Shown one piece after another: positions 15,624-52,737 of a stretch of DNA of 64,000 bases. Position 1 is the first letter of the stretch. Each line of letters begins with the position of its first letter. The translations under genes were made by a program, and so were the position numbers. This stretch comes from Pectobacterium araliae (lineage in GTDB: Bacteria; Pseudomonadota; Gammaproteobacteria; Enterobacterales; Enterobacteriaceae). Location: positions 1,550,001 to 1,614,000 of the forward strand of contig NZ_AP028908.1 of the NCBI RefSeq assembly GCF_037076465.1, written 5' to 3'. Below the pieces are notes generated by a model, which made no database searches, had not been told where the DNA came from, and saw nothing but the letters and a program-made list of their open reading frames with translations.

Positions 15624-15644
15624 TCAATTTCTCAGGAGAACATC

Positions 15645-18913: not shown

Positions 18914-19520
18914 TTTAATTTTACCTTTATGTTATTTGCTGGAAATAAAAGATCTTGCTCGCAATAATTGAGTATTTTTGATTTATTTAGTTTATTAAGT
19001 GTGATTTTAGTTTGTTAATAATGGGTGTGATCGGCGTTTGACGAGGTTGTTAATGGTCTTTGGGGTGTTTTTTAAAAATAATTAATGCTTTGTTTTTATT
19101 TTGTTATGGCTTGTGTTGTTTTGGTTTCTGTTTTCGTTAATGTTTACCATAAAAAATGCATCTCGATGTTAATTAATCTACCATTAACGGGGTATTTCCC
19201 CATATTCTATTGTTTTTAAATGATTAGTTTAAAAATTGAAAAATGAATCCCTCTTTGGCAATGAAGTCAACATTAGGCCATTGTGGTTTTGTCGGGAAAT
19301 AAAAATCTGCACGTTGATGCGACTCATTCTAGAAATATAGCTGATGTGTTTTTTGTTATTTTTTCCTTTGATGCGAAGGGCGACTATTTTTATAGAGTGA
19401 TTGGTTATTAAGATAAAGTTTCTATAAATTTTTTAGAATATCTGGATAGCGGATATTTCCCTTTCAAAGCAGAATATAGCCGAATATCGGTGTGGTTATT
19501 CTCTTTTTGAGCGGCACCCG
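18914..19520. other. Long AT-rich gene-free stretch
   Basis: Together with 18797-18913 this is a 750-bp gap between the divergently pointing 5' end of dcuB and the 3' end of hasF. It is far richer in A/T than its surroundings and dense in stop codons in every frame. Apart from the FNR-like box no promoter, RNA or protein-like segment could be recognised. It may be a recombination scar or carry an unrecognised RNA. Confidence 0.4.
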
Positions 19521-37288: not shown

Positions 37289-37593
37289 CTTCGTCTTACT
37301 TTTATTTGCTGACAATGTGCGTAGGCAGTGGATAGATCGCAAAGATGCGGCAAGTACGTCCGTTGTAAGCTTGAGCCGCGCAGGTATGAATCTCATCCCT
37401 GAGATTCTCCCTTTCAGGGCCGTCGCAAGCGACGTTCAAAGGCGTTCCTGACGCTTTTGCCCCTGGCGCGGACGCTTTACTCTTCTATTCCATTCCCCGG
37501 TTTTCGTTCCATAAATAGATTCATCAATGATAGCGCCACAGATGAGATGTGGCGCTTTTGTGATGCCTTTTCCTGTTCGATTAGGGTATCTTT
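37289..37593. repeat. Intergenic region with several palindromes, possible dispersed repeat
   Basis: Between proP and the Zur-like box. It contains AATCTCA/TGAGATT (37389-37395 with 37400-37406), CGTCGC/GCGACG (37421-37426 with 37429-37434) and an imperfect AAAGGCGT/ACGCTTTT pair just after. Such a chain of short GC-rich palindromes looks like one of the intergenic repeat families of soft-rot bacteria. No other copy was noticed in this window. Confidence 0.4.
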
Positions 37594-37616
37594 ATTTGTT
37601 ATGTTATAACATATCC
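37594..37616 (+). promoter_or_regulatory. Zur-like operator upstream of the AztD-like gene
   Basis: The core TGTTATGTTATAACA (37597-37611) matches the enterobacterial Zur consensus TGTTATA-N-TATAACA at 13 of 14 positions. It ends 31 bp before the start codon. A near-identical 23-bp site (22 of 23) stands upstream of the Opp/Cnt-type operon at 47068-47090. Confidence 0.8.
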
Positions 37617-37646: not shown

Positions 37647-38966
37647 ATGCAGAAAACGACAATCGCAGCGACTCTGGCGCTGTTGATGGGGGCGGGAAGT
37701 GCGAGTGTTCAGGCGCACGATCATGAAATACTGCGCGGACGGTTAATCTTTTCCGATCACCAGAAACCGACGCTCAGCGTGCTGGATCTGGATACTTTCA
37801 AGGTTACGCATACCTTTGACGTCGGCCGGGCGAATGCTTCGCTGGTGCCTACCGAGGATGGTCGATTTACGATCGTCAACCTTTACGATGACGTGGGTAC
37901 GATTACTTTCCTTGATACTGGCCTGACCTATGAATCGCACGATGACCATCTGGACGTGCATAAAGGTGAGCCGCGCCTTCTGCCGCTGCGGGTAACGGGA
38001 GACAAACCGTCGCATATTACCTCGGAGAATGGCTGGGTGGCCTGGTCGTACGATGGTTTACGTCCGTGGGACGGCGCCAGTAAGCCAGAATCGGTCATGA
38101 TCCGTTTGTCGGATCTGGATAGCGCGAATCCCGTGGTGGAGAAGCGTAAAAGCCCGGCACCGCAGCACGGCATCACCGCACCGTTAGGAAATAATCAGTG
38201 GCTGATTTCTGTGCCGAAAGCCGTCTATGCCAAAGGCGACGATAAAACGGTGACGTCGCGCCCTAACGGTTTTGTCGTTTATCAGCAGGATAAGGACTGG
38301 AAAGCGATTGCGGACTTCAATCAGGAGCAGGATCTACAGCGTTCTTGTAAAGAGTTTCACGGCCACAGCGAGTTGAATCACGTTCACGTTTTTGGCTGTA
38401 ACGTGAAGCTGGCTGACGGGGATACGAAAAGTGACGGCGGCGTTTTGCTCGTAAAACAGCAGAGCGGGAAATGGGTATCGCACAAGCTTGCATACCCTGA
38501 CGATCGCCGCACCAGCACGCTGAAATCTGGCTTGCAAGGCACTTATGTGGTTGGAAATTATGGCGGACTGGGCGGACAGCCGTTTAACGCGCTGATTCGC
38601 ATCGATCCTCAGGCCAAAAAGCTCACGGCACAGGATACGTTCTCGGTCCCCGACGGTCAGGCGGTGTGTAAATTTGAGGTCTCCGCCGATGGCAAGCGGG
38701 TCGCGAATCTGACGCCGGACGGCAAGTTGCGTTTGTATGACATTGCGCCAAACTGGAAGCAAATCGCCAGCTTTGATGCGGTTGAGGCGTTCGACTGTGC
38801 TTATGGCGCGAAAACGCCAACGCCGTCGCTTGCTATTATCGGTGGCAGTGTGTATGTCAGCGATCCAGTGAATCAGCGCATTCGTGAATTTTATCTGAAC
38901 AGCGCGAAGCAGGGACTGGATATTAAGATTGATGGTGCGCCTACCGAACTGGCAGGCAAGCGCTAA
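37647..38966 (+). CDS. AztD-like periplasmic zinc-binding beta-propeller protein
   Basis: A 439-residue exported protein. The signal peptide ends at VQA (residue 23), leaving the mature N-terminus HDHE, a metal-binding start. The body is a repeated beta-blade sequence ('LSVLDLDTFKVTHTFDVG', 'SADGKRVANLTPDGKLRLYD') with more histidine clusters: 'ESHDDHLDVHKGE' and 'SCKEFHGHSELNHVHVFGC', the latter flanked by two cysteines. This agrees with AztD, the periplasmic zinc chaperone of the AztABCD importer. The start at 37647 has an ACGGAGAG site; the frame is open upstream but not signal-like. No aztABC genes are adjacent, so the protein is an orphan here. The strong Zur-like box upstream supports a zinc role. 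Confidence 0.78.
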   Translation: MQKTTIAATLALLMGAGSASVQAHDHEILRGRLIFSDHQKPTLSVLDLDTFKVTHTFDVGRANASLVPTEDGRFTIVNLYDDVGTITFLDTGLTYESHDDHLDVHKGEPRLLPLRVTGDKPSHITSENGWVAWSYDGLRPWDGASKPESVMIRLSDLDSANPVVEKRKSPAPQHGITAPLGNNQWLISVPKAVYAKGDDKTVTSRPNGFVVYQQDKDWKAIADFNQEQDLQRSCKEFHGHSELNHVHVFGCNVKLADGDTKSDGGVLLVKQQSGKWVSHKLAYPDDRRTSTLKSGLQGTYVVGNYGGLGGQPFNALIRIDPQAKKLTAQDTFSVPDGQAVCKFEVSADGKRVANLTPDGKLRLYDIAPNWKQIASFDAVEAFDCAYGAKTPTPSLAIIGGSVYVSDPVNQRIREFYLNSAKQGLDIKIDGAPTELAGKR

Positions 38967-39010: not shown

Positions 39011-39069
39011 ACTTTCTACCTGTGGGCAGCGCTTAGCGACCAATGAGCCACAACTGAGTACAAAATGGG

Positions 39070-39094
39070 CAACCGCAGCCGTTAACGGCGGTTG
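39070..39094 (-). terminator. Hairpin after amn
   Basis: CAACCGC (39070-39076) pairs with GCGGTTG (39088-39094) enclosing the palindrome CCGTTAACGG. It stands 37 bp downstream of the minus-strand amn stop; the following CCCATTTTG is a short T tract. Confidence 0.5.
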
Positions 39095-39130
39095 CGTCGC
39101 ACTGGCCGGGGTGAATAGTTTGCAATCCCA

Positions 39131-40591
39131 TCAGCGAAACGGTGGCTCGTTAAAGGTGCGTAGCTTACGTGAATGCAGCTTGTCGCTTTCCGCCCGCAGC
39201 AGATCGATGGCGCAGATGCCAATCTGCAAATGCTCCGAAATTGCCCCTTCATAGAAACGGTTCGCCTGTCCCGGCAGCTTGATTTCACCGTGCAATGGCT
39301 TATCTGAGACGCACAGCAGCGTACCGTAAGGCACGCGGAAGCGGTAACCCTGTGCGGCAATCGTTGCACTTTCCATATCCACTGCGACGGCGCGGCTGAG
39401 ATTAAACCGCAGTGCGGAAGCAGCATAGCGTAGCTCCCAGTTACGATCGTCGGTGGTGACCACGGTGCCGGTACGCAGGCGCTGTTTAACTTCTTCCCCC
39501 GGCATTCCGCTGACCATCTTGGTCGCGTCGTACAACGCGCGCTGCACTTCGGCGATGCTGGGAATCGGGATATCCGGTGGTAGAACGGCGTCCAGTACAT
39601 GATCGTCACGCAGGTAAGCGTGTGCCAGCACATAATCGCCGATGGACTGGCTTTCGCGCAGGCCGCCGCAGTGGCCGATCATCAACCAGGCATGCGGGCG
39701 CATTACCGCGAGATGATCGCAGATAGTTTTCGCATTAGATGGCCCGACACCGATGTTAACCATCGTAATGCCTTTCCCGTGGCGGGAAATCAGATGATAA
39801 GCGGGCATCTGGTGGTTTTTCCATGCCAGATCGGACACCGTCTGCTCGGGGTTAGGTGTTTCGACGGTGATGTAGATCCCCCCCGCGCAGGACAATGCCT
39901 CATAGGGGCTAGCGGGATCGGCAATCTGCGCACAGGCCCAGCGTACAAACTCATCGACATAGCGAGTGTAGTTGGTAAAGAGAATGAATGGCTGAATGTG
40001 TTCCACTGGCGTGCCAGTGTAGTGACGAAGCCGGGCGAGCGAGAAGTCGGTACGCAGTGCGTCAAAGTGCGATAATGGCGATGTGGTAGTGGCATGATAC
40101 AAGCCATCAGCCGTTTCATCCCCAATCTGTGACAGTTCCGTGGTCGGGAAATGTTTCGCGATGCCCGCGCTCATGGAACGATCAAGAATCAGATCGGAAC
40201 CGTCGAGCACGTAGGGGAACGGGATCTCCTGCTGTGATGGGCTGACTTCAATTCTGACGTCATAGTCCCCTTCAAGCAGCGCCAGCTGTTCCGCGAGATA
40301 AGCGCGCAGAAACGCGGGACGGGTGACGGTGGTAGAATAACTGCCGGGATGGGTAAAACGCCCATAGGCACGATGTCGTGGATGTCCGGTTGACTCCCCG
40401 TTCCAACTCACGCGTAAGGCGGGATAGGAAAATAATCCTGCTGCACGCGCATTGGCATCGGGTAGCGTGCCGTGATGGATAAAGTCTCCGATGGCGTCGC
40501 GCAGTGCCGAGACGGCATCATCATACAGCGCTTCCAGTTTATCCAGAGCCTGAGTGACGGTGAGGCTGATGTGGGATTCGCTGCTATGCAT
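39131..40591 (-). CDS. amn: AMP nucleosidase Amn
   Basis: A 486-residue cytoplasmic enzyme that hydrolyses AMP to adenine and ribose 5-phosphate; E. coli Amn has 484 residues. The N-terminal domain ('TVTQALDKLEALYDDAV') is specific to Amn and the C-terminal domain is a nucleoside phosphorylase fold with 'MVNIGVGPSNAKTICDHLAV' in outline, 'HCGGLRESQSIGDYVLAHAYLRDDHVLD' in outline and the purine-site 'VDMESATIAAQGYRFRVPYGTLLCVSDKPLHGE' region (key VDMESAT, SDKPLHGE). The start at 40591 has AAAGGAGAG 3-4 bases upstream; the GTG six codons before it overlaps that site. It is downstream of the Zur-linked operon with a 136-bp gap; co-transcription is possible but not indicated. Confidence 0.95.
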   Translation of the reverse strand: MHSSESHISLTVTQALDKLEALYDDAVSALRDAIGDFIHHGTLPDANARAAGLFSYPALRVSWNGESTGHPRHRAYGRFTHPGSYSTTVTRPAFLRAYLAEQLALLEGDYDVRIEVSPSQQEIPFPYVLDGSDLILDRSMSAGIAKHFPTTELSQIGDETADGLYHATTTSPLSHFDALRTDFSLARLRHYTGTPVEHIQPFILFTNYTRYVDEFVRWACAQIADPASPYEALSCAGGIYITVETPNPEQTVSDLAWKNHQMPAYHLISRHGKGITMVNIGVGPSNAKTICDHLAVMRPHAWLMIGHCGGLRESQSIGDYVLAHAYLRDDHVLDAVLPPDIPIPSIAEVQRALYDATKMVSGMPGEEVKQRLRTGTVVTTDDRNWELRYAASALRFNLSRAVAVDMESATIAAQGYRFRVPYGTLLCVSDKPLHGEIKLPGQANRFYEGAISEHLQIGICAIDLLRAESDKLHSRKLRTFNEPPFR

Positions 40592-40727: not shown

Positions 40728-42506
40728 CTAGTGCTTGTGGCGACCGGAGAGATTCGCTGCGCTCACCGCCAGTATCGACAGCACGCCGAGGGCGGCAGCC
40801 GGTGCCAGTACGCCCCAGAAGGCGCGTTCGATATACGGCATACCTTCCGCCAATACGCGTCCCCATTCCGGTGTCGGCGGTGACGCGCCCAGCCCTAAAA
40901 AGCCGAGTGATGCCAGCGCCAGCGCAATGCCGGGTAGCCGCAACATGGCGTGACGGAAAAGGGGACCAATCAGCGCTGGCAGAATATAGAACAGGCTGCG
41001 CCGTATTGGTCCTATGCCGAGAATTGGCAACATCCGAATATAAGGGCGCGCACTGATTTCGGCGACCAGTGCCGCCGTGTGGGCAGCCAGCGATGCCCAA
41101 CTGACGGCGATGACGGCAATCGCCGCGCCCGTTGCCGTTGGGCCGTTGATGGCGGCAACCAGCAGCCCAGCAATCACTGGGGGCAGGGCGTTAGTCACTT
41201 CGATGGGGCCGGTGAACAGGCGTGGGAACAACCCAACCAACAGGCCAATGGCGAGACAGGCCAGCGACACTGCCAGTGCTAACAGGCAGGTATACAACGT
41301 ACCGTGTGCCACGCGTGCCAGTAAATCACGACCCATGGCGTCTGCGCCAAAGGGCAGCGCGAACGATGGGGGTTGCAGGCGTAAAAAGGTGGAGGTAATG
41401 GGATCGCGCGGCAGGCCAGCGAGTAGCAGAAGTGCCAGCAACAGTATGCAGCCCATCGGCAGCCAGATGGCATGACGTGACGCAGGACTACCGCGTTCTT
41501 CCGGCACTGGCATCGCCCCGCTGCGCAGCGCGCGTCCGAGAATCAGTAGCCGCACGGCGCTAGCCGCCATACCCGCGAGCGAAGCGATGAGTAAGAGAAT
41601 GAGCACGCCGACCTGTAATGCGGGGAGATCCTGTGCGGCAGCGGCACCCAGCGTTGCGCGTCCCAGACCGGGAATAGCGAACACTTTTTCGACGGCAATC
41701 GCACCGCCCGTTAGCGATACCAGTACCAATCCTACCAGCGGCATCACGCTGGGCAGCGTGCGTTTCAGCACCGCCAACGCGATATGACGGCGACTTACTC
41801 CCGCCACACTCCAGGTCGTTAACCAATTTTCGCTAAAGGTGGCGGAGAGCGCATCGGCAATAATCCGCCCAAGGTAACCGCCTGCCGGAATACCGAGTGC
41901 CAGCGACGGCAGCACCGCGTAATGCAACCCCAACCAGCCATAGGGTGGAAACCACTGTAGCCAGACGGCACCAACGATCAGCAAAAACGATGCCAGTAGG
42001 AACTCGGGCAGCGCGGTAAATAAGGCGGCAAACAGACCGCCTGAACGGTGAATGTGGCCACGAAGTCCCTGCCGAAAAGTGGGGACGCACAGCACGGCAG
42101 CCAGCGTGAAAGCCACCAGCGCCGAAGAGGCCATCAGCGTGAGTGAAATGGCTACCGCCTGCAACATTCCTGGGAGCACCGGTCGACCAGAAACCCAGGA
42201 AGTGCCTGCATCGCCGTGCAACAGACCGGTCAGCCAATTCAACAGCAACCGCAGTGGGCCGTGATCCAGACCGAGAGACTGACGAATCGCGTTTAGCGTT
42301 TCCGCCGTTGCTTCCTGCTCGCCGGAGCGGGCGCGTAGCAATGCCAGCGCCGGGTCCTGACCGGATAGCCATGGCAGCATACCAATCAGCACCACAATAC
42401 CCGCCAGCGTGAGCAGTCGCGAAAACAGCGGGATCAGCACGCCATATTGTGGACGCTGCGTCTGGTTAATGTTGGCACAGGTGCGGCAGTACAGCGATTC
42501 GCTCAT
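40728..42506 (-). CDS. Fused DppB-DppC-type ABC permease
   Basis: A 592-residue protein that joins two normally separate permeases of the peptide/nickel/opine ABC family. Residues about 20-335 are DppB-like: 'QDPALALLRARSGEQEATAE', 'RQSLGLDHGPLRLLLNWLTG', a six-helix core, and the typical 'IAVEKVFAIPGLGRATLGAA'. Residues about 345-590 are DppC-like: 'ALPFGADAMGRDLLARVAHGT' in outline (GADxMGRD near residue 388), then six helices, 'SLGFLGLGASPPTPEWGRVL', and the end. The first 20 or so residues include CRTC-like text and are unlike DppB. It is the last gene of the Zur-linked five-gene operon and would form the whole membrane channel by itself. No frame break is seen, so the fusion is genuine. 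Confidence 0.9.
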   Translation of the reverse strand: MSESLYCRTCANINQTQRPQYGVLIPLFSRLLTLAGIVVLIGMLPWLSGQDPALALLRARSGEQEATAETLNAIRQSLGLDHGPLRLLLNWLTGLLHGDAGTSWVSGRPVLPGMLQAVAISLTLMASSALVAFTLAAVLCVPTFRQGLRGHIHRSGGLFAALFTALPEFLLASFLLIVGAVWLQWFPPYGWLGLHYAVLPSLALGIPAGGYLGRIIADALSATFSENWLTTWSVAGVSRRHIALAVLKRTLPSVMPLVGLVLVSLTGGAIAVEKVFAIPGLGRATLGAAAAQDLPALQVGVLILLLIASLAGMAASAVRLLILGRALRSGAMPVPEERGSPASRHAIWLPMGCILLLALLLLAGLPRDPITSTFLRLQPPSFALPFGADAMGRDLLARVAHGTLYTCLLALAVSLACLAIGLLVGLFPRLFTGPIEVTNALPPVIAGLLVAAINGPTATGAAIAVIAVSWASLAAHTAALVAEISARPYIRMLPILGIGPIRRSLFYILPALIGPLFRHAMLRLPGIALALASLGFLGLGASPPTPEWGRVLAEGMPYIERAFWGVLAPAAALGVLSILAVSAANLSGRHKH

Positions 42507-42542
42507 AGACTCTTCATCTTTCTGGTTACCGGTGCGTTACCG

Positions 42543-44051
42543 TTATTTCGCCGCAGCAATATGCGTGGCTGAATTGATCAGCGTGCGTTCACGCGGGTCG
42601 CGCAGTGCGTCTTTTACCTGTGCGCCTTCACCCTGAATGACGCGTTCATGCAGCATTGGGATCGCAGCATCGCTGGCAAGGATCAGATTTTCTGCTTGCA
42701 TAATGGCCTGACGGCGAGCCTCTCCGGCGGGAATGGCTGCCGCTTTTTGCAGCGCCTGATCGATTTCCGGGCGGCACAACTGAGCGATATTGAACGACCC
42801 TTCACAGGCAAAGTCGCTGTACAGGTAAGCAACGGGATCGCCGGAGTCTAGCACCGTTGCACGCGATAAAATAAAGGCGTCAAACTTGCCTGCCAGCGCG
42901 TCAGACTCAATCTGCGCATACTCACGTACGACTTGCTTTACCGTAAATCCAGCGGCAGTGAGTTGCTGTGCCAGATAGACCGCGACTTCCGGTAGCTCAG
43001 CGCGATCGCTGAAGGTGGCTAGCGTGATGGTTGCCCCTGCGGGTGCGCCGGCATTAACCGGATTCGCTACGGGTTGGCGCAGCCCGGCAGCCCATGGCAG
43101 CGCGGGACCTAACAACCCTTGGGCGACATCGGCACGCTTCTCATACACGTTATCTACTAGTTGCTGGCGGTTGATTGCCTCGCGCACGGCAGCCCGCATC
43201 GCGGGGTCTTGCATCACGCCATGGCGCGTATTTAGATACAGCGTGTTGGTGCGGGGCATTGGGACTTCATGCACCAGCGATTGATCCAGCAGCGGAGCCT
43301 GAGAAACGGGAATGGCTTCGACAATATCTGCGGTGCCAGTCCGTAAGGCGGCAGCCCGCGCGGTACCATCGGAAACAAAACTGACATCGATACCGCTGAC
43401 CTGTGCTTTCTCACCCCAGTAGCCGTCGAACCGATCCAATACCGCGCTGCTAGTGCCGGTGACGCTACGCAGAGTGAACGGGCCGCTTCCGGTGTTGATC
43501 GGATTAACGACGCGATTTTTACCGTATGCCTGCATGGAGAGGATTGCCAATTGCGGGCTGGATAAGCGCTGTGGCAACAGCGGGTCTGGTTTCGCCGTGG
43601 AAACGATAACGGCGCTATCGCCATCGGCTTTTATCGTTAACTGCACGCCGTCCAGAATACGCGGCTTGGGCGATGCGGTAGACGCCACGGTCAACGCATT
43701 CACTACCGTGGCGACGTTTAACGTGGTGTTGTCATGAAAATGGACGTTCGGGCGCAGTTCAAAACGCCAGGATTTATCATCGATCTGTTGCCATTTCGTC
43801 GCCAGCGCGGGTTGGGCTTCTCCGAGTTTGTCGAGCACCACCAGCGTTTCTGCTGTGCTCCAGCGCGACAGTTTAAAGGCGTCATCGCTCAGCGGCGTCA
43901 GGCCGGAACGGGGTGGCTGGAGCATCGCCAGTTTGATTCGGCCGTCATGATGTGAAACAGGGTGTTCTTCCGGTTCATTGAAGCAGCCTGAAAGCAGTAG
44001 CGTGGCTGACAGCAGGCCGAAAATGGGCCACAAGAAATTAGGCTTATTCAT
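42543..44051 (-). CDS. SBP_bac_5-type lipoprotein binding protein (metal-chelate/opine type)
   Basis: A 502-residue ABC substrate-binding lipoprotein of the oligopeptide/nickel/opine cluster. The lipobox LLSGC puts the acylated cysteine at C23. A histidine-rich stretch ('EEHPVSHHDGRIK') follows the signal. Family segments are 'WRFELRPNVHFHDNTTLNVATVVNAL' in outline, 'NTGSGPFTLRSV' and 'LYLNTRHGVMQDPAMRAAVREAINRQQLV' in outline. The ATG at 44051 has AAGGACAG upstream; one earlier TTG is less likely. It delivers substrate to the fused permease next to it. CntA of Staphylococcus (staphylopine-metal uptake) belongs to the same family, and the operon content and Zur-like site make a zinc-chelate substrate likely, though not shown. 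Confidence 0.87.
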   Translation of the reverse strand: MNKPNFLWPIFGLLSATLLLSGCFNEPEEHPVSHHDGRIKLAMLQPPRSGLTPLSDDAFKLSRWSTAETLVVLDKLGEAQPALATKWQQIDDKSWRFELRPNVHFHDNTTLNVATVVNALTVASTASPKPRILDGVQLTIKADGDSAVIVSTAKPDPLLPQRLSSPQLAILSMQAYGKNRVVNPINTGSGPFTLRSVTGTSSAVLDRFDGYWGEKAQVSGIDVSFVSDGTARAAALRTGTADIVEAIPVSQAPLLDQSLVHEVPMPRTNTLYLNTRHGVMQDPAMRAAVREAINRQQLVDNVYEKRADVAQGLLGPALPWAAGLRQPVANPVNAGAPAGATITLATFSDRAELPEVAVYLAQQLTAAGFTVKQVVREYAQIESDALAGKFDAFILSRATVLDSGDPVAYLYSDFACEGSFNIAQLCRPEIDQALQKAAAIPAGEARRQAIMQAENLILASDAAIPMLHERVIQGEGAQVKDALRDPRERTLINSATHIAAAK

Positions 44052-44061
44052 CAATCTGTCC

Positions 44062-45309
44062 TTATTGATTCACGGTTGAAGCGGATTTAAACGGGCGGCA
44101 GATAACCACCATGGCTAGCGAACTGCACAAGGGTACGGCGGCGAGCAGCACCCACGGAATGGCGGCCTGCGGCGATGGTGTCAGCGCGCGATCGAGCTGG
44201 CTACCGAGTATAAAGTTACCGACCAGTACCGCGATGCCGCCCATCGACGCCAGCGCGCCATAGTGCGCACCCAGGTTTTTGTTGTTGGCAAAGCGAGGAA
44301 TGAGATCCATGCCAACGGGGACGATCAGCATTTGTCCTAGCGTCAGCAGGGTAATTAATGAGATAGCCGGAAGCAGGCGTTGCCAGCCTTCAGGCGGCGT
44401 AGTAGAGGCAAACAGCGCCACGCTAAAGAACGACGCGGCCAGCAGCGCGAAACCCAATGGCAGCATGCGCGCGGCGCCAATCCGGCGGGCAAAACGCGCC
44501 AGTGGGAGCTGTAACCCGATCACCAGTAATGAGGCCAGCACAAACAGCGGGCCGAGATCTTTCTCGCTGCTGCCAGAGCGATGCAGTTCAACTGGGAGCG
44601 CTAAATAGAGCTGGTTGTAGCTGAACAGGTAAGCACTATAGGCGATGATGAACGCGACAAAGCGACGTTGGCGGAAGGTTTCCCACCACGGGGCGATATG
44701 CAATTCGCCTTGATTTTGCTGTGTCGGCGGTAGGCTGAAAAACAGGATGATAAGCGCGATCACAAAGACACCAGCGCCCGCGAGTGCCACGCGCTGGAAT
44801 CCGTACCCGGCCAGCACCGAGCCGAGCAACGGCCCGAGCACGGCACCCAGCTCGCCGCAAATGGCAAACAAGGCGAACCATTCGGAGCGGCTACGCTTTC
44901 CCTCTTTTTCGCTTTGCGTACCGGCCTGCGCCATCAGTGCTTCAATGGCAGGAGAGAACAGGGCACCGCCAACACCCGTCAGACAGGCGCCGAGGATGAT
45001 CGGCCATAGCGAGTCGCCCAGCGCCAGCAGTAAATAGCCGCTGATGCGCACCACACAGCCGCACAGGATAATCACGCGTGCACCGAATCTGTCCGCCAGT
45101 GCGCCGCCGACTAAAAACATGCCCTGCTGAGAAAAGGTACGTAAGCCAATCACTAGCCCGATAGCCCAGCCGGAAAGCAGCATGTCGTCACGCAGGAAAA
45201 TAGCCAGAAACGGCACCACGGCATAAAAGCCAATGTTGAAAACAAGCTGACTACCCAGAAGTAGCGGTGGATAAGGCCGTGGGGCGCGGTTGGCGGTAAG
45301 GTCTGACAT
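44062..45309 (-). CDS. MFS exporter (CntE/MdtH-like position)
   Basis: A 415-residue major facilitator protein with 12 helices. The loop 2-3 motif A reads 'GALADRFGARVIILCG'; motif C-like text 'GVGGALFSPAIEALMAQAG' is typical of the MdtH/drug-antiporter branch. It lies within the transport operon between the second ATPase and the binding protein (10 bp to the latter). In staphylopine and related metallophore loci an MFS protein (CntE) exports the freshly made metallophore, so its presence inside an uptake operon is a clue to metallophore traffic. No biosynthetic gene (nicotianamine synthase-like or opine dehydrogenase) accompanies it in this window. A multidrug role cannot be excluded. Confidence 0.85.
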   Translation of the reverse strand: MSDLTANRAPRPYPPLLLGSQLVFNIGFYAVVPFLAIFLRDDMLLSGWAIGLVIGLRTFSQQGMFLVGGALADRFGARVIILCGCVVRISGYLLLALGDSLWPIILGACLTGVGGALFSPAIEALMAQAGTQSEKEGKRSRSEWFALFAICGELGAVLGPLLGSVLAGYGFQRVALAGAGVFVIALIILFFSLPPTQQNQGELHIAPWWETFRQRRFVAFIIAYSAYLFSYNQLYLALPVELHRSGSSEKDLGPLFVLASLLVIGLQLPLARFARRIGAARMLPLGFALLAASFFSVALFASTTPPEGWQRLLPAISLITLLTLGQMLIVPVGMDLIPRFANNKNLGAHYGALASMGGIAVLVGNFILGSQLDRALTPSPQAAIPWVLLAAVPLCSSLAMVVICRPFKSASTVNQ

Positions 45310-45365
45310 TCAATCATCCGTTATCAAAAATCCCGTTATGGGGAATGGGTTATCGAAGCGATATT

Positions 45366-46211
45366 TTATGGTAAAAAATGCGTTTCAGTGAGCGAATAGC
45401 CAGAGGTTGATAGCGCGGGGACGGCTTGCAACAGACGGGCGGTGTGCGCCTGTTGCGGTGAAGCCAGCACCGCAGCCGTGGGGCGATCTTCAATAATGCG
45501 TCCGCCGTCCATGACCAGCATTCTGTCGCACAGCCCGGCAAGCATAGAAATGTCGTGCGAGACCATTAGCAATCCCATCTTGTTTTGTTCAGTGACCTGT
45601 TGCAGCAGGGTTTTGATCTGCTCACGTAACGGCAAATCCAGGCCGCTGACGGGTTCATCCGCCAGTAAAAAATCGGGGCGAATAATCAGCGCTCGTGCCA
45701 GCGCGACACGCTGCGCCTGTCCACCAGAAAGCTGCCCAGCGGCGTTGTCCAACAGTGTTGTACTGAGTTCGACTTGTTCCATGACGTTGCGCAGGCACAC
45801 TGGTGCATTTTCATCGGGACGCAAGCGCTTCAGCGGCTCAGTGAGAAGATCGGCGACGCGCTGGTGTGGGGCGAGCGAACCTGCCGGATCTTGCGGAATA
45901 TACTGAACGCGGCGGCGATACCACAGCAACGAACGTACCGAACCGGGCTTAATCAGGTTACCGTCACAGTACACCGTGCCACTCTCCGGTGCTTCCAGTG
46001 CCAGCAGCGTTTTCAGTAATGTGGATTTACCGCAGCCCGACGCACCAACCAGGCCGACACGTTCGTGACGGCGTAAATGTAGTGACAGGTCATGAAAAAT
46101 CGCGCTGTCAGGATCGGCCTTTTGCCACGGCAAACGTGACGTCTGACGATAGCGGCTGACGTGCTCAAGGCTTAAAAACGGTGAAGGAACCGCATGCAGG
46201 TGGTGGTTCAT
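45366..46211 (-). CDS. Opp/Nik/Cnt-type ABC ATPase (second, DppF-like)
   Basis: A 281-residue ATP-binding subunit. Walker A GASGCGKST is at residues 56-64, the Q-loop region is 'YIPQDPAGSLAPHQRV' (the QDPxxSLxP wording of the DppF/NikE class), the signature is 'LSGGQAQRVALARAL' and Walker B 'FLLADEPVSGLD'. It overlaps the first ATPase gene by 4 bp. It pairs with that subunit to energise the fused permease. Confidence 0.92.
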   Translation of the reverse strand: MNHHLHAVPSPFLSLEHVSRYRQTSRLPWQKADPDSAIFHDLSLHLRRHERVGLVGASGCGKSTLLKTLLALEAPESGTVYCDGNLIKPGSVRSLLWYRRRVQYIPQDPAGSLAPHQRVADLLTEPLKRLRPDENAPVCLRNVMEQVELSTTLLDNAAGQLSGGQAQRVALARALIIRPDFLLADEPVSGLDLPLREQIKTLLQQVTEQNKMGLLMVSHDISMLAGLCDRMLVMDGGRIIEDRPTAAVLASPQQAHTARLLQAVPALSTSGYSLTETHFLP

Positions 46212-47041
46212 CCGGCAAGCGCTCCGGCAACAGGTAACACATGGGTTGATAAAACATGGGTTGATAAAACATCGTCAGCGCGACGAGCGGCAGCCACCAA
46301 ACTACGGGTATAGGGGGGCTGTGGTGCATTCAGTAGTTGCACCATAGTACCGGATTCAACGATCTGACCATTTTCCATCACCAGACCGCGCTGGCAGAGT
46401 TGGGTGGCGACGGCAATATCATGCGTAATAAACAGCAGTGCAGGTGCATCCGGCTGCGCACTACGTTCCTGTAAGACGCGCAATACCTGCTGCTGAGTGA
46501 TGACATCCAGCGCGGTTGTGGGTTCATCCGCCACCAGTAGCCGGGTTTTGCCAAGCAGTGCGAGGGTAATACAAATACGCTGACGCTGACCGCCGGACAA
46601 TTCGGCAGGGTAGCGCTGCAATAGGTTGGGAATATCGTCCAGCTTCATGGCTGTCAGAAGCGCAGTAAGCTCAGCGGAAGGGGGGGCTTTCAACGCCAGC
46701 GAGAGCTGTTTCCCTAACGGCATGAGCGGATTGAGCGCCGTCGCAGAGTCTTGAAAAACGGCAGATACCCGACTGGTATGCGGGCGCGCCAGCGCGTTCA
46801 ACTGACTGACTTCTTGACCATTTACCTTAATACTGCCGCTAATCTGGCAGCCTGTGGCTGGGGTGCCGATCACGGCTTTAGCGGTGAGGGATTTACCGGA
46901 ACCCGATGCGCCGAGTAAACAGACTCGCTCGCCTGCGAACAGCGTAAAACTGATATCGCTGACTTTGGTTTCGCCACCAATCGACAGGTTAAGGTTCCCC
47001 ACCTGGAGAATGGTATCTGTGTGTCTGTTCCAGTTAATCAT
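46208..47041 (-). CDS. Opp/Nik/Cnt-type ABC ATPase (first, DppD-like)
   Basis: A 277-residue ATP-binding subunit with Walker A GASGSGKS at residues 44-51, 'AVFQDSATALNPLMPLG' as Q-loop region (QDxxTALNP, the DppD/NikD class), signature 'LSGGQRQRICITLAL' and Walker B 'LLVADEPTTALDV'. It is the first gene of the five-gene minus-strand operon; a Zur-like operator lies 27-49 bp upstream of the ATG. Near the C-terminus a 15-bp duplication gives the repeated peptide VLSTH-VLSTH. It overlaps the next gene by 4 bp. Confidence 0.92.
   Translation of the reverse strand: MINWNRHTDTILQVGNLNLSIGGETKVSDISFTLFAGERVCLLGASGSGKSLTAKAVIGTPATGCQISGSIKVNGQEVSQLNALARPHTSRVSAVFQDSATALNPLMPLGKQLSLALKAPPSAELTALLTAMKLDDIPNLLQRYPAELSGGQRQRICITLALLGKTRLLVADEPTTALDVITQQQVLRVLQERSAQPDAPALLFITHDIAVATQLCQRGLVMENGQIVESGTMVQLLNAPQPPYTRSLVAAARRADDVLSTHVLSTHVLPVAGALAG
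46239..46272. repeat. 15-bp tandem duplication in the ATPase gene
   Basis: ACATGGGTTGATAAA occurs at 46239-46253 and 46254-46268, followed by four bases of a third copy. It keeps the frame and adds five residues (VLSTH) near the C-terminus of the first ATPase. Likely a replication-slippage product. Confidence 0.85.
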
Positions 47042-47067
47042 GGTTAACGTATAGGGTTAGTGTAAAT

Positions 47068-47090
47068 GGATATGTAATAACATAACAAAT
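47068..47090 (-). promoter_or_regulatory. Zur-like operator of the Opp/Cnt-type operon
   Basis: On the minus strand the core reads TGTTATGTTATTACA; it agrees with the Zur consensus TGTTATA-N-TATAACA at 12 of 14 positions. The 23-bp site is identical at 22 positions to the one upstream of the AztD-like gene. It lies 27-49 bp before the start codon of the first ATPase gene, the right place for a repressor site. Confidence 0.78.
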
Positions 47091-47224
47091 CACAACGAAG
47101 TGATGCAAAGGAAATGTGATCCAGAGCGTATAAATAACGCTATCGACGCAGCCCTAATAGCTCGCGTCGATGATGATAGTAGGGAGAGTCAATCGTAGAG
47201 AGATACGGTATGTATGCTTAGTGG

Positions 47225-48133
47225 TTACTCGTTGGGTTCCTGACTGAGCTGTGCCAGTTCCGCCGCGCTTAACTGAGTAATCTGACAAACCTGAGCAGGT
47301 TCCATGCCGCTAAGTAGAAGCTGACGAGCAATGTTTCGAGCACTGGCTTTCATTCCTTGCTGTATGCCATGTTTGATGCCTTTTTCAAACCCGATTTTCT
47401 CAAGCTGCTGTGCGATGGTCATGATCGCCTCCCGATCCGTTGACAGAGATTGCGCGATAGCCTCAATAAAATCGGCGGGCTTGGATGTATTGCCGCTCCG
47501 CGCGATGTAAAACAGTATCGCTCTTTTTTGCGGCAGTGGTATCTGCCAGCGTTCAAATAATAGCCCGATATCCTGGGCCAGTTCCAGCATATCTCGTGTG
47601 CGAATGTGTTTTTGCACCAGTTCCAACAGCGCCACGCGGCGATGCGTCTTGATGTCCTCATCCGGTATCACCGTTAGGTCAACTAAAGGAAAGGCGGCGT
47701 TGTAGAGTTTTTCTGCCTGAATAGCGTCAGCAAAACCGTCGAGCCAGCACAGCGTATAGGGATAAGGGCTACGCTGGCCGTGATAAAACAGTAAAGGAAC
47801 GACGAGCGGCAACGTATCGTGACCTTGAGAGAGGTGCTGCTGCATGGCAGCCAGCGCGTAGCGCAGCAGGCGAAACGGCATCAGCTTTTCTGGGCGGCTC
47901 TGATGTTCGATCACACAATAGATATAACCTTGCCCTGTGGTAGTCTGAATTGAGTACAGCATATCCGATATTCTTGCGCGTAGTTCCTCGTCAACAAAAG
48001 AGGCTGATTGCAGTTGTAGCGAACTGAAGTCGCAGATATGCCTGATTTCTTCTGGCAGGTGGATGGCGAAAAAATCCTTTGCGACGGCTGGGTCGCTGAG
48101 AAACTGTTTAAAAATCGCATCATGCGCAGCCAT
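47225..48133 (-). CDS. Rpn-family PD-(D/E)XK nuclease / transposase-like protein
   Basis: A 302-residue protein of the recombination-promoting nuclease (Rpn, formerly YhgA-like transposase) family. The N-terminal 'AAHDAIFKQFLSDPAVAKDFFAIHLPEEI' (outlined) and the nuclease core 'LRARISDMLYSIQT' with 'YIYCVIEHQSRPEKLMPFRLLRYA' (outlined; D, E-x-Q catalytic residues) are standard. The C-terminus ends in 'IKHGIQQGMKASARNIARQLL', as in other members. The start at 48133 has GGGACGG upstream; the longer frame to 48262 is unlike the family. Rpn proteins are DNA endonucleases linked to RecA-independent horizontal transfer and phage defence. No terminal inverted repeats or target duplications were seen around it, so it is not part of a visible insertion sequence. 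Confidence 0.9.
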   Translation of the reverse strand: MAAHDAIFKQFLSDPAVAKDFFAIHLPEEIRHICDFSSLQLQSASFVDEELRARISDMLYSIQTTTGQGYIYCVIEHQSRPEKLMPFRLLRYALAAMQQHLSQGHDTLPLVVPLLFYHGQRSPYPYTLCWLDGFADAIQAEKLYNAAFPLVDLTVIPDEDIKTHRRVALLELVQKHIRTRDMLELAQDIGLLFERWQIPLPQKRAILFYIARSGNTSKPADFIEAIAQSLSTDREAIMTIAQQLEKIGFEKGIKHGIQQGMKASARNIARQLLLSGMEPAQVCQITQLSAAELAQLSQEPNE

Positions 48134-48306
48134 GCTGTTTTTCCGTCCCTGAATAATCTGTAGGCAATGGTAAAAGAAGCGGATATGGGCAGGGAAGAAG
48201 CGCAGAGGACGACTGCGTTGGTATGGAAGGATGTACGCAAGAAAAGTGAGAAATGAAAGCAACGATGCGATCTCACTGGGAGCAAGATCGCGTTAAGGTG
48301 TGAGGG

Positions 48307-50100
48307 TTAGCTCTGTTGCGTGGTCAGCCACTGGCGCAAGCGTTCGGGCTGTTGTGCGCCGCTCAGGCGTGCCTGTTCTTCACCGTTTTCAAGCCATAGC
48401 AGCGTTGGTAGCGTTCTCACCGCCAGTTTCTCTGTCAGTACAATGTGATGATCGGCGTCCAGATAATGACTTGGTAATTGACGGTATTCCTCATTATCCA
48501 GGATCGTTTCTAACTGACGGTAGAGGCTTTTACAGTGGACGCAGCGCTCGGCGCCGACCAGCAGCAGCTGTGGCGTGTCTTGTGCCGCTAACTCAGGCCA
48601 GTCTTCAGCAGTAAGCGGAGCGAAGCGTTCACGGTTGACGGCAAAGAGCTTCGGGCTGCGCTTAAGGTCTTCGCTGTCGGTTGCGACGCATAGGGCATCG
48701 CCGCTCTTTTTATAAGGGCGCGTACCGTCAATACGAATCACGCTAGCGAAGCCGGGGGCGGCGGCTCCGGGTTGACGTAGCTGAGTATTATCGGGAGCCA
48801 TCACGGGTGTTTCCTGTGGGCGCGGCAGCTGTGGCACCCATTCATAGGGAACGCGGTAGGCGCGATACAGCATGTTGGTGTTCACCGTTTTGCCCCAGTA
48901 AGGGGAAATAAACTCCCAGACAATTTCGTGATCGACGGTGACTTCAAACAGTCGACCGTTAGCCCCTTCGTTAATCAAGGTATTGCCGTTGGGCAGGCGT
49001 TGGATATTACTGATATACGGACTGTAAAAACGAAACGCATCGGTCGGATGTGGGATTCCCGCTTCATAGGGCGAGTAGCGCCAGACAATATCCAGCGTCA
49101 CCGGATTGATTTCCAGCACGCGGGAATAATCACGCCAGGCGTTTTTTACCCCGTCCGCCGATGCCGGATTAGGTGCGCCATAGCCCGCCCAGCCGCCGTT
49201 ATCAAACACCAGAATATTGCCTGCGCCGGGTAATCCCGCAGGGATCATATGGGCGTGGTGCTGACCGATAATCCAGCCGATGTGTTTGAGTTCAGGCGTG
49301 TTGTAATGAGGACCAAGCTGCCAGACGATGTTGCCACTCTGCTTGTCGATGATGGCGATGATGTTGGATTCGCGCGCGTCCCAGATGATGTTATCCGGGT
49401 GGAAACGGCTATCACCTTGATCGAACCACGGATTGGGGCCGAGTGCCGACATGGAGTTGATGTGCATCCAGTCGCCCATCCCGCCGCCGCTCTTGCGCAG
49501 GTTAGGATTGTTGTACAGCGCGGTTTTTGCGTCGTCATCAAAACCCAGCTCATCGAAATGGTCGCTGCACCGCCATTCCCATAAAATGTTGCCCTGCCAG
49601 TCCACCTCAATGATGGTGTCGTCGAGCAACAGTTTGTCGCTGATGCGTTCATTGTGCAGGTTGGTATGCGCCAGCAGTAGCGTGTTGCCGCCAATCGACT
49701 GGGGCTCTTGCCCGGGTGCATAATAGCCGACCGGGTTGCCGCTGCGCTGGTAATCATGGTGGACGCGCGCCATCCATTCTGGCGGAAGATCAGGATCGGT
49801 TATGTGCTCATACCCATTGAACTTCCAGACGACGTTGCCGTCCCAGTCCACCTGAATCAGGTCGACCATATCTTGCATACCATAGCGCGAATCACGTTCG
49901 CCGCTGTGTCCGAGAATGTAGCCGCCGGGCAGAATTTTGTTGGGGAAGCCGTGCAGACCTTCCCACAAACGCAGTTCGGTGCCGTTCATATCTACCAGCA
50001 CCGCGCCGCGTTCCAGCGCCTGAAAGACGGTGTAGCCGCCCCAGGCTTTTTCTGGGTTATAAATCGTGGTGCCGGTTGGGTAGACGGATGGGTGTCCCAT
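48307..50100 (-). CDS. Arylsulfotransferase-like protein fused to a thioredoxin domain
   Basis: A 597-residue two-domain protein. Residues about 10-430 form a six-bladed propeller of the arylsulfotransferase (ASST) type, with repeats such as 'LIQVDWDGNVVWKFNG', 'TIIEVDWQGNILWEW' and 'IIDKQSGNIVWQLG', and conserved histidine segments 'LAHTNLH', 'DWMHINSMSALG' and 'GQHHAHMIPAG' (residues 279-289), then 'ILVFDNGG'. Residues about 480-597 are a thioredoxin fold with C520-V-H-C523 and the cis-proline loop 'RTLPTLLWLENG'. There is no signal peptide, unlike periplasmic AssT, so it should act in the cytoplasm. A TGGAG site precedes the ATG. It lies 16 bp after the SsuB-like ATPase gene in a sulfate-ester/sulfonate transport operon, suggesting transfer or release of sulfate from imported esters. 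The reaction is inferred. Confidence 0.85.
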   Translation of the reverse strand: MGHPSVYPTGTTIYNPEKAWGGYTVFQALERGAVLVDMNGTELRLWEGLHGFPNKILPGGYILGHSGERDSRYGMQDMVDLIQVDWDGNVVWKFNGYEHITDPDLPPEWMARVHHDYQRSGNPVGYYAPGQEPQSIGGNTLLLAHTNLHNERISDKLLLDDTIIEVDWQGNILWEWRCSDHFDELGFDDDAKTALYNNPNLRKSGGGMGDWMHINSMSALGPNPWFDQGDSRFHPDNIIWDARESNIIAIIDKQSGNIVWQLGPHYNTPELKHIGWIIGQHHAHMIPAGLPGAGNILVFDNGGWAGYGAPNPASADGVKNAWRDYSRVLEINPVTLDIVWRYSPYEAGIPHPTDAFRFYSPYISNIQRLPNGNTLINEGANGRLFEVTVDHEIVWEFISPYWGKTVNTNMLYRAYRVPYEWVPQLPRPQETPVMAPDNTQLRQPGAAAPGFASVIRIDGTRPYKKSGDALCVATDSEDLKRSPKLFAVNRERFAPLTAEDWPELAAQDTPQLLLVGAERCVHCKSLYRQLETILDNEEYRQLPSHYLDADHHIVLTEKLAVRTLPTLLWLENGEEQARLSGAQQPERLRQWLTTQQS

Positions 50101-50116
50101 AGTGGTGCTCCAGTAT

Positions 50117-50926
50117 TTACGTGTTCAGAGAAGAGGAGATGGCCGCCGTATCGGCTGGCTGCGTCAGGAGTGTGAGCAGATCGCTGCACTGCTGGTGAAA
50201 GTCTTGGCTGTCACGCTGGCGCGGATGTGGCAGCGAAATGGTTGTAATCTGGCGGATACGCCCCGGTCGCGGTGCCAGTACGACAACGCGGTCGGCGAGG
50301 TAGACAGCTTCTTCGACGTCGTGCGTCACCAGCAGGGTCGTGGTGCCTTCTGCCTGATGAATACGACGCAACTCCTGTTGCATCTGCTGGCGAGTCAGGG
50401 CGTCTAATGCACCGAAAGGTTCATCCAACATCAGGATCCGGGGATTGGCGACGAGTCCGCGCGCGATGGCGACACGCTGTGCCATACCGCCGGAAAGTTG
50501 GGCGGGCAGGGCATCGGCAAAATCCTGCAAATGCACGAGCTGAATAAAGTGGTCAATCAAGTGTTGTCGCTCTTTTTCGCTGATCGATTCATTCGCAAGC
50601 CCAAGTGCGATGTTTTGCCGCACGGTCAACCAGGGAAACAGGCGCGGTTCCTGAAACACCATGCCGCGCTCGCGTCCGATACCACGAACAGTTTTTCCTT
50701 CAACCAGCACGCGCCCTTGATAATCGTTGTCTAACCCGACCAACATGCGCAGCAGTGTGGATTTTCCGCAACCGCTGCTGCCGACAATCGCCACCAGTTC
50801 ACCGCTGTGAATCGACAGTGAAAAATCCTCAATCACTGTCAGCGATTCGCCCTGTACGCGAAATTGCTTATGCAGATGGTCGAACCGCACCACGGGTGGT
50901 GACACATCAGGGGAAGGGGACGTCAT
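50117..50926 (-). CDS. SsuB/AtsC-like ABC ATPase
   Basis: A 269-residue ATP-binding subunit with Walker A GSSGCGKST at residues 49-57, signature 'LSGGMAQRVAIARGL' and Walker B 'ILMLDEPFGALDALTR'. The Q-loop region 'MVFQEPRLFPWLTVRQN' is typical of the sulfonate/sulfate-ester group. The start overlaps the permease stop by 4 bp. It joins the double permease and the binding protein encoded divergently at 52738. Sulfur-starvation control is expected from family knowledge. Confidence 0.92.
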   Translation of the reverse strand: MTSPSPDVSPPVVRFDHLHKQFRVQGESLTVIEDFSLSIHSGELVAIVGSSGCGKSTLLRMLVGLDNDYQGRVLVEGKTVRGIGRERGMVFQEPRLFPWLTVRQNIALGLANESISEKERQHLIDHFIQLVHLQDFADALPAQLSGGMAQRVAIARGLVANPRILMLDEPFGALDALTRQQMQQELRRIHQAEGTTTLLVTHDVEEAVYLADRVVVLAPRPGRIRQITTISLPHPRQRDSQDFHQQCSDLLTLLTQPADTAAISSSLNT

Positions 50927-52500
50927 GCAATTTCTCCTGCGGAACGCCAGCGCGTCATCCGCTGTTCCAGACCTAATCCGACGCGATCAAGTATCGCGCC
51001 CGTTAATCCAATCAGCAGCATGCCGCTGATAATCAGAGGCATATCCAGCAACTGTTGGGCGTTGATCATCAGGCTGCCGATTCCGGTGCCGGATGACATG
51101 AAATATTCTGCGCCGATGGTGCCAAGCCAGGCATAAATCAGTGACAGGCGCAGACCCGCGAAGATCGCAGGCGCTGCGCCCGGTAGGATTAAGACTCGCA
51201 GGCGGGTCAATAAACGGAGCTGTAACACGTGAGCGACTTCCTGTAATGCCAGTGAACGTTGGCGAATACCACGATGACTGGCAACCAGCATGGGAAAGAA
51301 GGAGGCGAGTGCGACAAACGTGATTTTTCCGGCTTCATCGTTACCGACCCAAGCGGTCAGCAGCGGTAGCCAGGCAAACAGCGCGATCTGACGTAGCATC
51401 GCGACCGTCGGCGTAAAGAGGGCGTCGCTGGTGGCGTTTAGCCCCAGTAGTACGCCGCCTATGAGGCCGGCGGCAATACCGCATACCGCACCAGCGAGTG
51501 CACGAGTCAGGCTGGCCTGCATCGCCTCGGTAAGTGAACCATCGCGAAAGCCTTGTAGCAGCATGTGCCATACGTCGGCGGGCGGAGGAAGCAAGAGCGG
51601 ATCGATCCAACCGAAGCGGCTGGTCTGCTGCCAAAACAGCAGAAGCAGAAAGGGTAAAACCAGCGCCGATAGGCGGCGAGGCGACGCCGTGGTTAAGCGG
51701 CCGATCGGTGGGGGTGGCCAGAAGACCAGACGGCGCTCCAACTGATTGATCAACCACTCCATCGCCAGTCCTGCCAGTCCGATGGTGGCGATGCAAACAA
51801 ACACGATGTCTAGCTGAAACAGCTGACGTCCCCATACCAGCAAGTAGCCAATCCCCTGAGATGACGCCAAAAGTTCGACCACGATCAGCGATACCCACGC
51901 CTGTGAGAGTGCGAGTCGCAAGCCTGTGAGCCAGGTCGGGAACGCCGCGGGCAGGGTTAATTTGATGAGGCGCTGATGCCACGGCAGGCGTAGCGTGCGA
52001 GCGACTTCCTGTAGCGCATGCGGCACATTACGCACGCCCGTTTGTGTATGCAGCGTCACGGGGATAATGACGGCCTTGATAATAACGGCCAGCTTCAGGC
52101 CGTCATCAATACCGAATAGCACCATAAACAGGGGGATCCACCCCAGCGTTGGGATCTGTGCCAGCACGTACACCGTTGGGTGCAGCAGATGTTCGGCGCG
52201 GCGTGACGCCCCCATCAGCGCGCCAAGTAAGGTGCCTGCGAGTAAACCGGCCAGCAGGCCGCTCGCTAAGCGTTGCAAGCTGGTAAAGAGCTGTGGCAGA
52301 AGATCGTTGTGCCACAGTTCGACGGCGGTGTTGGCGACAAGATGGGGTGCAGGAAGAATCTGAGCGGGCATCCAGCCGTAGTGGGTGCTGATATACCACA
52401 GTGCTAGCAACGCCAGAGGAACGACGAGCGGATAGGCCAGCGCTATCGGCAGCGAAGGCCAGACGATCACGTTTTTTTTCAGCACTATCGACTTATTCAT
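50923..52500 (-). CDS. Double SsuC-like ABC permease (two fused permease domains)
   Basis: A 525-residue inner-membrane protein containing two complete BPD_transp_1 permease domains in tandem. The first (about residues 20-250) has 'ILPAPHLVANTAVELW' and 'LRLALSQAWVSLIVVELLASSQGIGYLL' in outline; the second (about residues 285-525) repeats the scheme with 'IDPLLLPPPADVWHMLLQGF', 'LRLSLIYAWLGTIGAEYFMSSGTGIG' in outline. Normally SsuC works as a homodimer, so this protein can form the channel alone. AtsB of the Pseudomonas sulfate-ester transporter is, from memory, a similarly large permease. The start at 52500 is preferred (GTGGAATAA upstream); starts at 52518 and 52605 have no ribosome site. 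It is divergent from the binding-protein gene. Confidence 0.88.
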   Translation of the reverse strand: MNKSIVLKKNVIVWPSLPIALAYPLVVPLALLALWYISTHYGWMPAQILPAPHLVANTAVELWHNDLLPQLFTSLQRLASGLLAGLLAGTLLGALMGASRRAEHLLHPTVYVLAQIPTLGWIPLFMVLFGIDDGLKLAVIIKAVIIPVTLHTQTGVRNVPHALQEVARTLRLPWHQRLIKLTLPAAFPTWLTGLRLALSQAWVSLIVVELLASSQGIGYLLVWGRQLFQLDIVFVCIATIGLAGLAMEWLINQLERRLVFWPPPPIGRLTTASPRRLSALVLPFLLLLFWQQTSRFGWIDPLLLPPPADVWHMLLQGFRDGSLTEAMQASLTRALAGAVCGIAAGLIGGVLLGLNATSDALFTPTVAMLRQIALFAWLPLLTAWVGNDEAGKITFVALASFFPMLVASHRGIRQRSLALQEVAHVLQLRLLTRLRVLILPGAAPAIFAGLRLSLIYAWLGTIGAEYFMSSGTGIGSLMINAQQLLDMPLIISGMLLIGLTGAILDRVGLGLEQRMTRWRSAGEIA

Positions 52501-52737
52501 TTTATTCCACGAAAGCATCACTGTTGGATGAATAGGGAATAAAAAACAGGTTTCAGTGGTGAACGCCAATGCAATAAAGCGATGGTCGCCGTGCAATAAA
52601 TGCATATGCGTAGCCCAAGCCCGTCAGCGCTGATTTATGCTTTTTTTCGCTTAACAAACCTCTAAATGTTATTTAAGCCTGGCGCCAACGGTTCGCTAGT
52701 TTCATGGCAGATAAAACGGATTATTGAGGAAAACCGT
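52501..52737. promoter_or_regulatory. Divergent promoter region of the sulfate-ester operons
   Basis: 237 bp between the minus-strand permease-ATPase-sulfotransferase genes and the plus-strand binding-protein gene. TTTATTGCA occurs twice (near 52568 on the plus strand in the form CAATAAA and near 52595), a possible repeated regulator half-site. The LysR gene at 53879 is the likely regulator. No -35/-10 pair is assigned. Confidence 0.4.

Follow-up and report, generated by a model that had tools for sequence, protein, structure and literature searches.

A conserved importer operon with a fused permease and a Zur-like box in Pectobacterium araliae: a probable route for zinc uptake

The five-gene operon and its Zur box

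A row of five minus-strand genes, encoding an Opp/Nik-class ATP-binding cassette (ABC) importer together with a major facilitator superfamily (MFS) protein, was analyzed in a 64,000-nucleotide stretch (hereafter the window; positions 1,550,001-1,614,000) of the single-contig genome (4,663,678 bases) of Pectobacterium araliae, which causes soft rot in plants. Behind a Zur-like box, the gene order is ATPase-ATPase-MFS-substrate-binding protein (SBP)-permease. The window list of open reading frames (ORFs) places a DppD/NikD-type ABC ATPase of 277 aa (ATPase 1) at 46208-47041, a DppF/NikE-type ABC ATPase of 281 aa (ATPase 2) at 45366-46211, sharing 4 bases with the first, an MdtH-like MFS transporter of 415 aa at 44062-45309, an SBP_bac_5 lipoprotein of 503 aa at 42543-44054 and a fused permease of 592 aa at 40728-42506. 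Assignments were based on NCBIfam and Pfam, and for the SBP also on its predicted fold; Pfam identified two ABC_tran proteins, MFS_1, SBP_bac_5 and, twice within the 592-aa protein, BPD_transp_1. The ORFs and both profile collections agree with the gene classes proposed in an initial annotation, which had been made from the letters of the DNA alone.

The permease is a single polypeptide in which NCBIfam B-type models cover residues 32-307 and C-type models residues 375-578. Because both kinds of model match one chain, the fusion of DppB- and DppC-like halves suggested by the initial annotation is real. The top permease matches are nickel-type models (Opp1B, Opp2B, Opp2C and NikB; NCBIfam). An SBP_bac_5 protein, two BPD_transp_1 units (one chain) and two DppD/F-type ATPases make up an Opp/Dpp/Nik importer, which, as initially proposed, stands in one row with an MFS gene. 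The SBP carries a lipobox, LSGC, whose GC is nearly invariant across 31 homologues; its top NCBIfam profile is Opp5A/NikA (184 bits, below the 600-bit cut-off). The MFS protein scored 134.7 bits against the MdtH model, likewise below the cut-off (469 bits).

The box is a 23-mer, GATTTGTTATGTTATTACATATC, on the minus strand at 47069-47091, with a palindromic core at 47073-47087 and its proximal end 27 bp ahead of the first start codon (47041); a Zur-like site had been read at this place initially. The core pattern TGTTATNNTATNACA, the E. coli consensus with one position relaxed to suit the operon site, has three exact places in the 4.66 Mb genome: one precedes the five-gene operon, one (window position 37597) an AztD-like gene at a distance of 9.5 kb, and one (3701605) an aztABC-like set. 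When one mismatch was allowed, there were 22 core matches genome-wide against 15 for a reversed control pattern, so that the one-mismatch places are mostly due to chance. Six of 15 further such places were inspected; two precede zinc genes, namely znuA/znuCB (2064163) and type B ribosomal protein L31 (1189491), and four do not. Since the core pattern had been partly fitted to the operon site, an independent matrix was trained on four further sites at zinc genes in this genome, with the operon site excluded. The operon box scored 26.4 on this matrix, within the range of the training sites (23.6-30.9), while the best score elsewhere in the window, away from its two boxes, was 11.4. The Zur-like box is real, beyond chance. 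A single promoter-like match overlapping the start region is at chance level. No terminator-like site lies between the permease gene and amn, and read-through from the permease gene into amn is therefore possible.

Distribution of the family and conservation of the box

A scan of genome contigs returned 79 loci (numbered with the prefix L), 64 with a clear homologue (55-96% identical) and 15 with distant homologues only (23-31%). Pectobacterium supplies the closest SBP homologues, with identities of up to 96%. Carriers among the 64 loci include Pectobacterium, Samsonia, Brenneria, Enterobacter, Rahnella, Hafnia, Winslowiella, Pantoea, Lonsdalea and Serratia, as well as Marinomonas, Vibrio, Aliivibrio, Photobacterium, Rhizobium and Pseudoroseomonas and the actinobacteria Arthrobacter, Lentzea and Saccharothrix. 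Within the taxonomic family of P. araliae the SBP profile matched 29 of 295 sampled genomes (two of them partially) and 18 of 154 genera; within the phylum it matched 9 of 398, own genus included. The family is thus spread widely but unevenly. In 60 of the 64 loci a single uninterrupted ORF of 534-604 aa encodes the fused permease, the exceptions being split genes in L008, L028 and L061 and a contig end in L043; in all 20 further loci the permease ORF was likewise unbroken (572-600 aa). The Marinomonas SBPs are 66-68% identical to the operon SBP and those of Vibrio and Aliivibrio 55-58%, with many invariant motifs. At the Saccharothrix locus L059, a second, divergent SBP-permease pair (5607-8864; 48% identical) lies back to back with the family member, and an actinobacterial Zur-like core is found near the gap between the two pairs.

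The box accompanies the genes. Among 58 proteobacterial loci, 54 score at least 14 near the ATPase 1 start, or 56 when L036 (17.2) and L061 (14.3) are counted; the remaining two are L054 (11.4) and L031 (10.0). All 20 further loci, at least four of which repeat L012, L013, L024 and L030, have a box of at least 15.7 at the same place. By comparison, only 12 of 803 other gene starts in the proteobacterial loci reach 14. These comprise four AztD genes, two starts flanking a Fur-family gene, one DksA paralogue, two DUF1007 genes, the ATPase 1 of L036 itself, a small secreted protein of L010 and one unexplained start (L015). Applied to the six actinobacterial loci, the proteobacterial matrix gave no score above 9, the threshold for reporting. 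An actinobacterial core, TGANAATNATT, occurs there exactly once each in L037, L038, L040 and L059, near the row start, against an expectation of 0.002-0.006 per locus; in L059 it falls within the longest reading of the SBP ORF. The Zur consensus of S. coelicolor is TGAAAATGATTTTCA (PMC2823685). That zinc-type control is exerted through two different operator sequences is good evidence that the operon serves zinc.

A promoter box conserved together with its gene in relatives is what a member of a Zur regulon displays, and the Zur control proposed initially appears well supported by this genome-wide and phylogenetic footprint. Judged by sequence, the operon very probably encodes a conserved zinc importer under Zur control, and it is probably induced by zinc starvation. 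The KEGG maps 'ABC transporters' and 'quorum sensing' both hold peptide/nickel transporter genes. Both maps were enriched among the 72 differentially expressed genes (56 up) of a P. odoriferum zur deletion (PMC10298282), which would fit derepression of the five-gene operon. The operon was not seen in the accessible sections on the Zur regulons of V. parahaemolyticus (PMC9817125), S. fredii (PMC7029138) and B. cenocepacia (PMC10563805), nor in those of a Zur review (PMC6103462), and no description of the five-gene family was found within the limited collection of literature searched.

Exporter-type genes recur beside the importer. An MFS gene of the window type stands in or beside the row in 24 of 64 loci (a homologue in L038, 9 kb away and on the opposite strand, is not counted), and a MATE gene is present in 21: immediately upstream of the row in 19 (with one small gene in between in L048), 5.4 kb upstream in L051 and downstream in L058. 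Five Rahnella loci additionally carry EamA; the exporter families were checked by Pfam on L056 and L022. The MFS gene is inside the row in Pectobacterium and upstream of it in Enterobacter L013, and Serratia L032 and L159 have a different MFS type downstream. Given that MFS placement and the kind of exporter vary among loci, the exporter partnership survives rearrangement.

Zinc-response genes with boxes of their own lie close to the importer in several relatives. In the window, a second Zur box (37593-37615, plus strand; pattern and matrix) precedes a gene for an AztD-like periplasmic zinc metallochaperone (37647-38966, plus strand, start re-read at 37647; ORF and NCBIfam). Its AztD model match of 117 bits is below the 400-bit cut-off, and the gene is a probable companion in the same zinc response. 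The aztABC-like genes are ∼2.1 Mb from it, and both are Zur-boxed. NicO-type transporter genes were observed near the importer in different lineages (L158, 6229-7239; L049, 4011-5545; L056, 4009-5615), with DUF1007 beside NicO in L049 (in L056 by similarity) and a Zur-like box belonging to the pair in both Vibrio loci. In Brenneria, a gene for a DksA paralogue lies within a few kb of the importer in L012 (13868-14287) and L014 (13917-14396); a Zur-like box stands 27 bp upstream of the L012 copy. A strong Zur-like box is also present 395 bp ahead of the FolE2 ORF (18641-19497) in Marinomonas L026. Between amn and aztD, relatives also have a small Zur-boxed gene; its product, secreted and ∼80 aa long, bears a CPFC-type motif close to the end and in L002 ends CGCPFCTQLRLIGR. 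This small gene is longer in L002, L005, L010 and L011, and by DNA alignment in L006 and L035; the window retains just its 3' end (39033-39132, minus strand), the box and start having been lost in a deletion against the amn end.

Directly upstream of the operon, on the same strand, is a gene for an Rpn-family recombination-promoting nuclease/transposase (47225-48262). It is followed at 48307-52605 by another ABC set, beside an aryl sulfotransferase-like gene, whose 560-aa permease appears by eye to join two permease halves in one chain. At Pseudoroseomonas L036, genes for a chorismate-binding enzyme, an AMP ligase, an isochorismatase and non-ribosomal peptide synthetase (NRPS)-type proteins lie downstream of the importer (10507-16364) and look like a catechol siderophore cluster.

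Cargo, ligand and exporter

The initial annotation had likened the operon to the staphylopine-type (Cnt) loci and had noted the lack of metallophore synthesis genes. For the opine dehydrogenase CntM (PF10100) that lack extends further: there was no match in the P. araliae genome, in 295 genomes of its family, in 369 of its class or in 48 genomes behind fetched loci, 47 of them carriers of the importer family (49 of the 64 loci were submitted and 47 were searchable, with L016 and L036 left out). The positive control matched 55 of 197 Paenibacillaceae and no Gram-negative genome, so that sensitivity in Gram-negative bacteria is not shown. A nicotianamine synthase-like CntL (PF03059) was likewise not found in the genome and the 47 carriers, by a model that is a weak probe for CntL-type proteins, as it found four of four cnt-locus genomes only weakly (E 9e-12 to 6e-4).

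The proposed kinship did not hold up against ten Paenibacillaceae cnt loci, whose SBPs are encoded beside cntM. Six of these SBPs (first kind) score 359-401 bits to E. coli NikA and 23-29 to the operon SBP, and three (second kind) score 132-141 bits to GsiB and 95-102 to the operon SBP. No match to the window MFS was present among the proteins shown from these loci. In a tree of 54 SBPs, from which S. aureus CntA was left out, the 31 family rows group with the second copy of L059 in a single clade (100/100), and seven cnt-locus SBPs fall in two other places; the deep forks are weak and some branches long. The operon SBP profile gives 79 bits to S. aureus CntA versus 125 to S. aureus NikA; the CntA structure (5yh5) is not among the 50 structure matches listed, an absence not used as evidence. 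With the SBP in a separate clade, no MFS match and no CntM found, membership by descent was rejected: by sequence comparison the operon is not a Cnt system by descent, and its SBP clade is nearest to NikA-type nickel proteins and separate from the cntM-adjacent SBPs.

The structure search places the predicted fold of the operon SBP nearest to S. aureus NikA, a nickel-chelate SBP. The ligand residues of E. coli NikA, which we take to be Arg97, Arg137 and His416, correspond in the family to Lys130, Gln168 and Ala/Gly/Ser/Thr, in a distant alignment with uncertain column placement. Among ten presumed NikA pocket residues, W100, R137, W398 and Y402 are kept in four first-kind cnt-locus SBPs and none of them in the operon family. 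The second-kind SBPs also do without these four, and the pocket alone therefore does not exclude an opine ligand.

We favor Zur-controlled zinc import, to which we give a probability of roughly 0.85. When zinc is scarce, Zur would leave the box at 47069-47091 and the five-gene row would be made. The lipoprotein would capture zinc complexed with a small porin-crossing ligand, e.g. as a chelate of histidine or small-carboxylate type. Carrying the complex inward would fall to the single-chain B+C permease with its two ATPases, and zinc would be released in the cytoplasm. The MFS protein would then expel the freed ligand (recycling) or a surplus of it. We infer zinc as the cargo, a chelate rather than the free ion, and the direction and cargo of the MFS protein; the scheme as a whole, ligand export included, has somewhat better than even odds. 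A zinc complex is the most likely import cargo and a reasonable reading of the chelate import suggested initially; nickel or cobalt, also allowed for then, is less likely because of the Zur control.

Several observations weigh against this interpretation. A Zur motif indicates regulation, not cargo; the boxes are weak in Rhizobium (10.0) and V. inusitatus (11.4), and the exact actinobacterial core was not found in two of six loci (L034 and L039). The closest named families are matched only far below cut-offs. The sequence profile ranks 3t66 (155 bits) and 5u4o (141) ahead of S. aureus NikA (125), and Foldseek likewise puts these two first. A histidine-type chelate is guesswork, given that the family does not conserve the presumed NikA ligand residues. 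As to export, the MFS protein resembles MdtH-type drug exporters most closely. Of 21 Vibrio or Aliivibrio loci, 20 have their MATE gene upstream of the row and hence of the box, and an adjacent MFS of the window type and a MATE gene are both missing from 19 of 64 loci; the exporter may therefore be optional or unrelated.

Other explanations would keep some of these features. The operon might be the receiving half of a Cnt system, importing opine metallophores (staphylopine, pseudopaline or yersinopine type) from neighboring bacteria. The transporter classes, the MFS gene and the Zur control are as in Cnt loci, the second-kind SBPs likewise lack the NikA residues, and zincophore-cluster exporters are MFS, EamA or MatE (PMC7438024), the kinds found beside this importer. 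The position of the SBP outside both cnt-locus clades, its low scores to both and the loss of presumed NikA residues that four first-kind SBPs keep make this unlikely. No opine dehydrogenase was found in the 47 carrier genomes, within the sensitivity limit noted above, and therefore no producer was seen among them. We consider equally doubtful a zinc ligand made by the bacterium itself through an unrecognized route (EDDS-like, NRPS or the small Zur-boxed secreted cysteine protein) and exported by the MFS protein. Recurrent exporter-type neighbors, the small protein gene between amn and aztD and the chorismate, isochorismatase and NRPS-type genes of L036 speak for it, but the small gene is truncated in the window while the importer is intact, and neighbor clustering revealed no biosynthetic cluster common to the 64 loci. 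NRPS-type neighbors were seen in three loci alone (L036 and, for a single adenylation-domain piece, L045, both confirmed by Pfam; L047, by clustering), and an NRPS-made ligand was not taken as the leading explanation because such neighbors are not general. For EDDS and aspergillomarasmine as ligand, an idea only, no importer was found in the literature searched, including the accessible part of PMC9252823.

Slightly less probable still is the import of peptides or amino acids in a zinc-sparing response, with zinc not the cargo. SBP_bac_5 proteins and Dpp-type ATPases belong mostly to peptide systems; against this, the nearest fold is a nickel-chelate SBP, the permease matches best to nickel-type models, and boxed zinc-response genes lie near the importer in several relatives. 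Plant zinc-nicotianamine, the ligand that the initial annotation thought most obvious, is very improbable for the family. The best SBP homologues are in Pectobacterium, a plant-pathogen genus, and plant association is also found among several other carriers. The plant ligand is unlikely because the same SBP, its motifs highly conserved, is present in Vibrio, Aliivibrio and Marinomonas as well; such conservation suggests one ligand across habitats.

Zur-controlled import of a zinc complex remains our preferred reading, and a tentative extension would make the family a zinc shuttle for one conserved ligand common to plant, gut, soil and marine bacteria. Interchangeable exporters (MFS, MATE, EamA) would expel the ligand, and the zinc complex would return via the single-chain Opp/Nik permease, with no nicotianamine synthase or opine dehydrogenase chemistry. 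If true, this would be a further general zinc uptake route beside Znu/Azt, ZIP and the opine zincophores. Bacteria living in hosts, plants and seawater are limited by how much zinc they can obtain. The occurrence, across Enterobacterales, Vibrionales, alphaproteobacteria and actinobacteria, of a Zur-boxed importer whose binding protein is strongly conserved points to a common natural form of zinc for which no described transporter was found. The binding protein is a ready bait for identifying the ligand, and the missing biosynthesis genes make scavenging versus own production directly testable.

Comparison with known zinc and nickel importers

The class of importer is already known. In C. diphtheriae, growth at low zinc is supported by six loci, two of which, nik1 and nik2, encode importers of NikA/OppA type, and the NikA/OppA-type set dip2162-2165 is Zur-regulated (PMC12445094, PMC6711530). 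The idea is the same, a Zur-controlled Nik/Opp-family ABC importer used for zinc, and the principle is therefore known; dip2162-2165 (taken as nik1 or nik2) differs in having two separate permeases and one ATPase. AztABCD and ZnuABC are likewise Zur-boxed in the same P. araliae genome, but their binding protein (AztC-like) belongs to another Pfam family, PF01297. Cnt/staphylopine-type loci also combine an Opp-class importer with an exporter under zinc control; here the permease is fused, the SBP falls in another clade and no cntM was found in the genome or the 47 carriers. The NikA-type nickel proteins (S. aureus NikA, i.e. Opp5A, 3rqt and 4xkr; 3t66) are ∼20% identical to the operon SBP, which in contrast to them is Zur-boxed and in a row with a fused permease and an MFS gene. 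The operon stands out as a distinct form of this known class by its fused permease, the exporter swapping, the wide distribution and the missing ligand.

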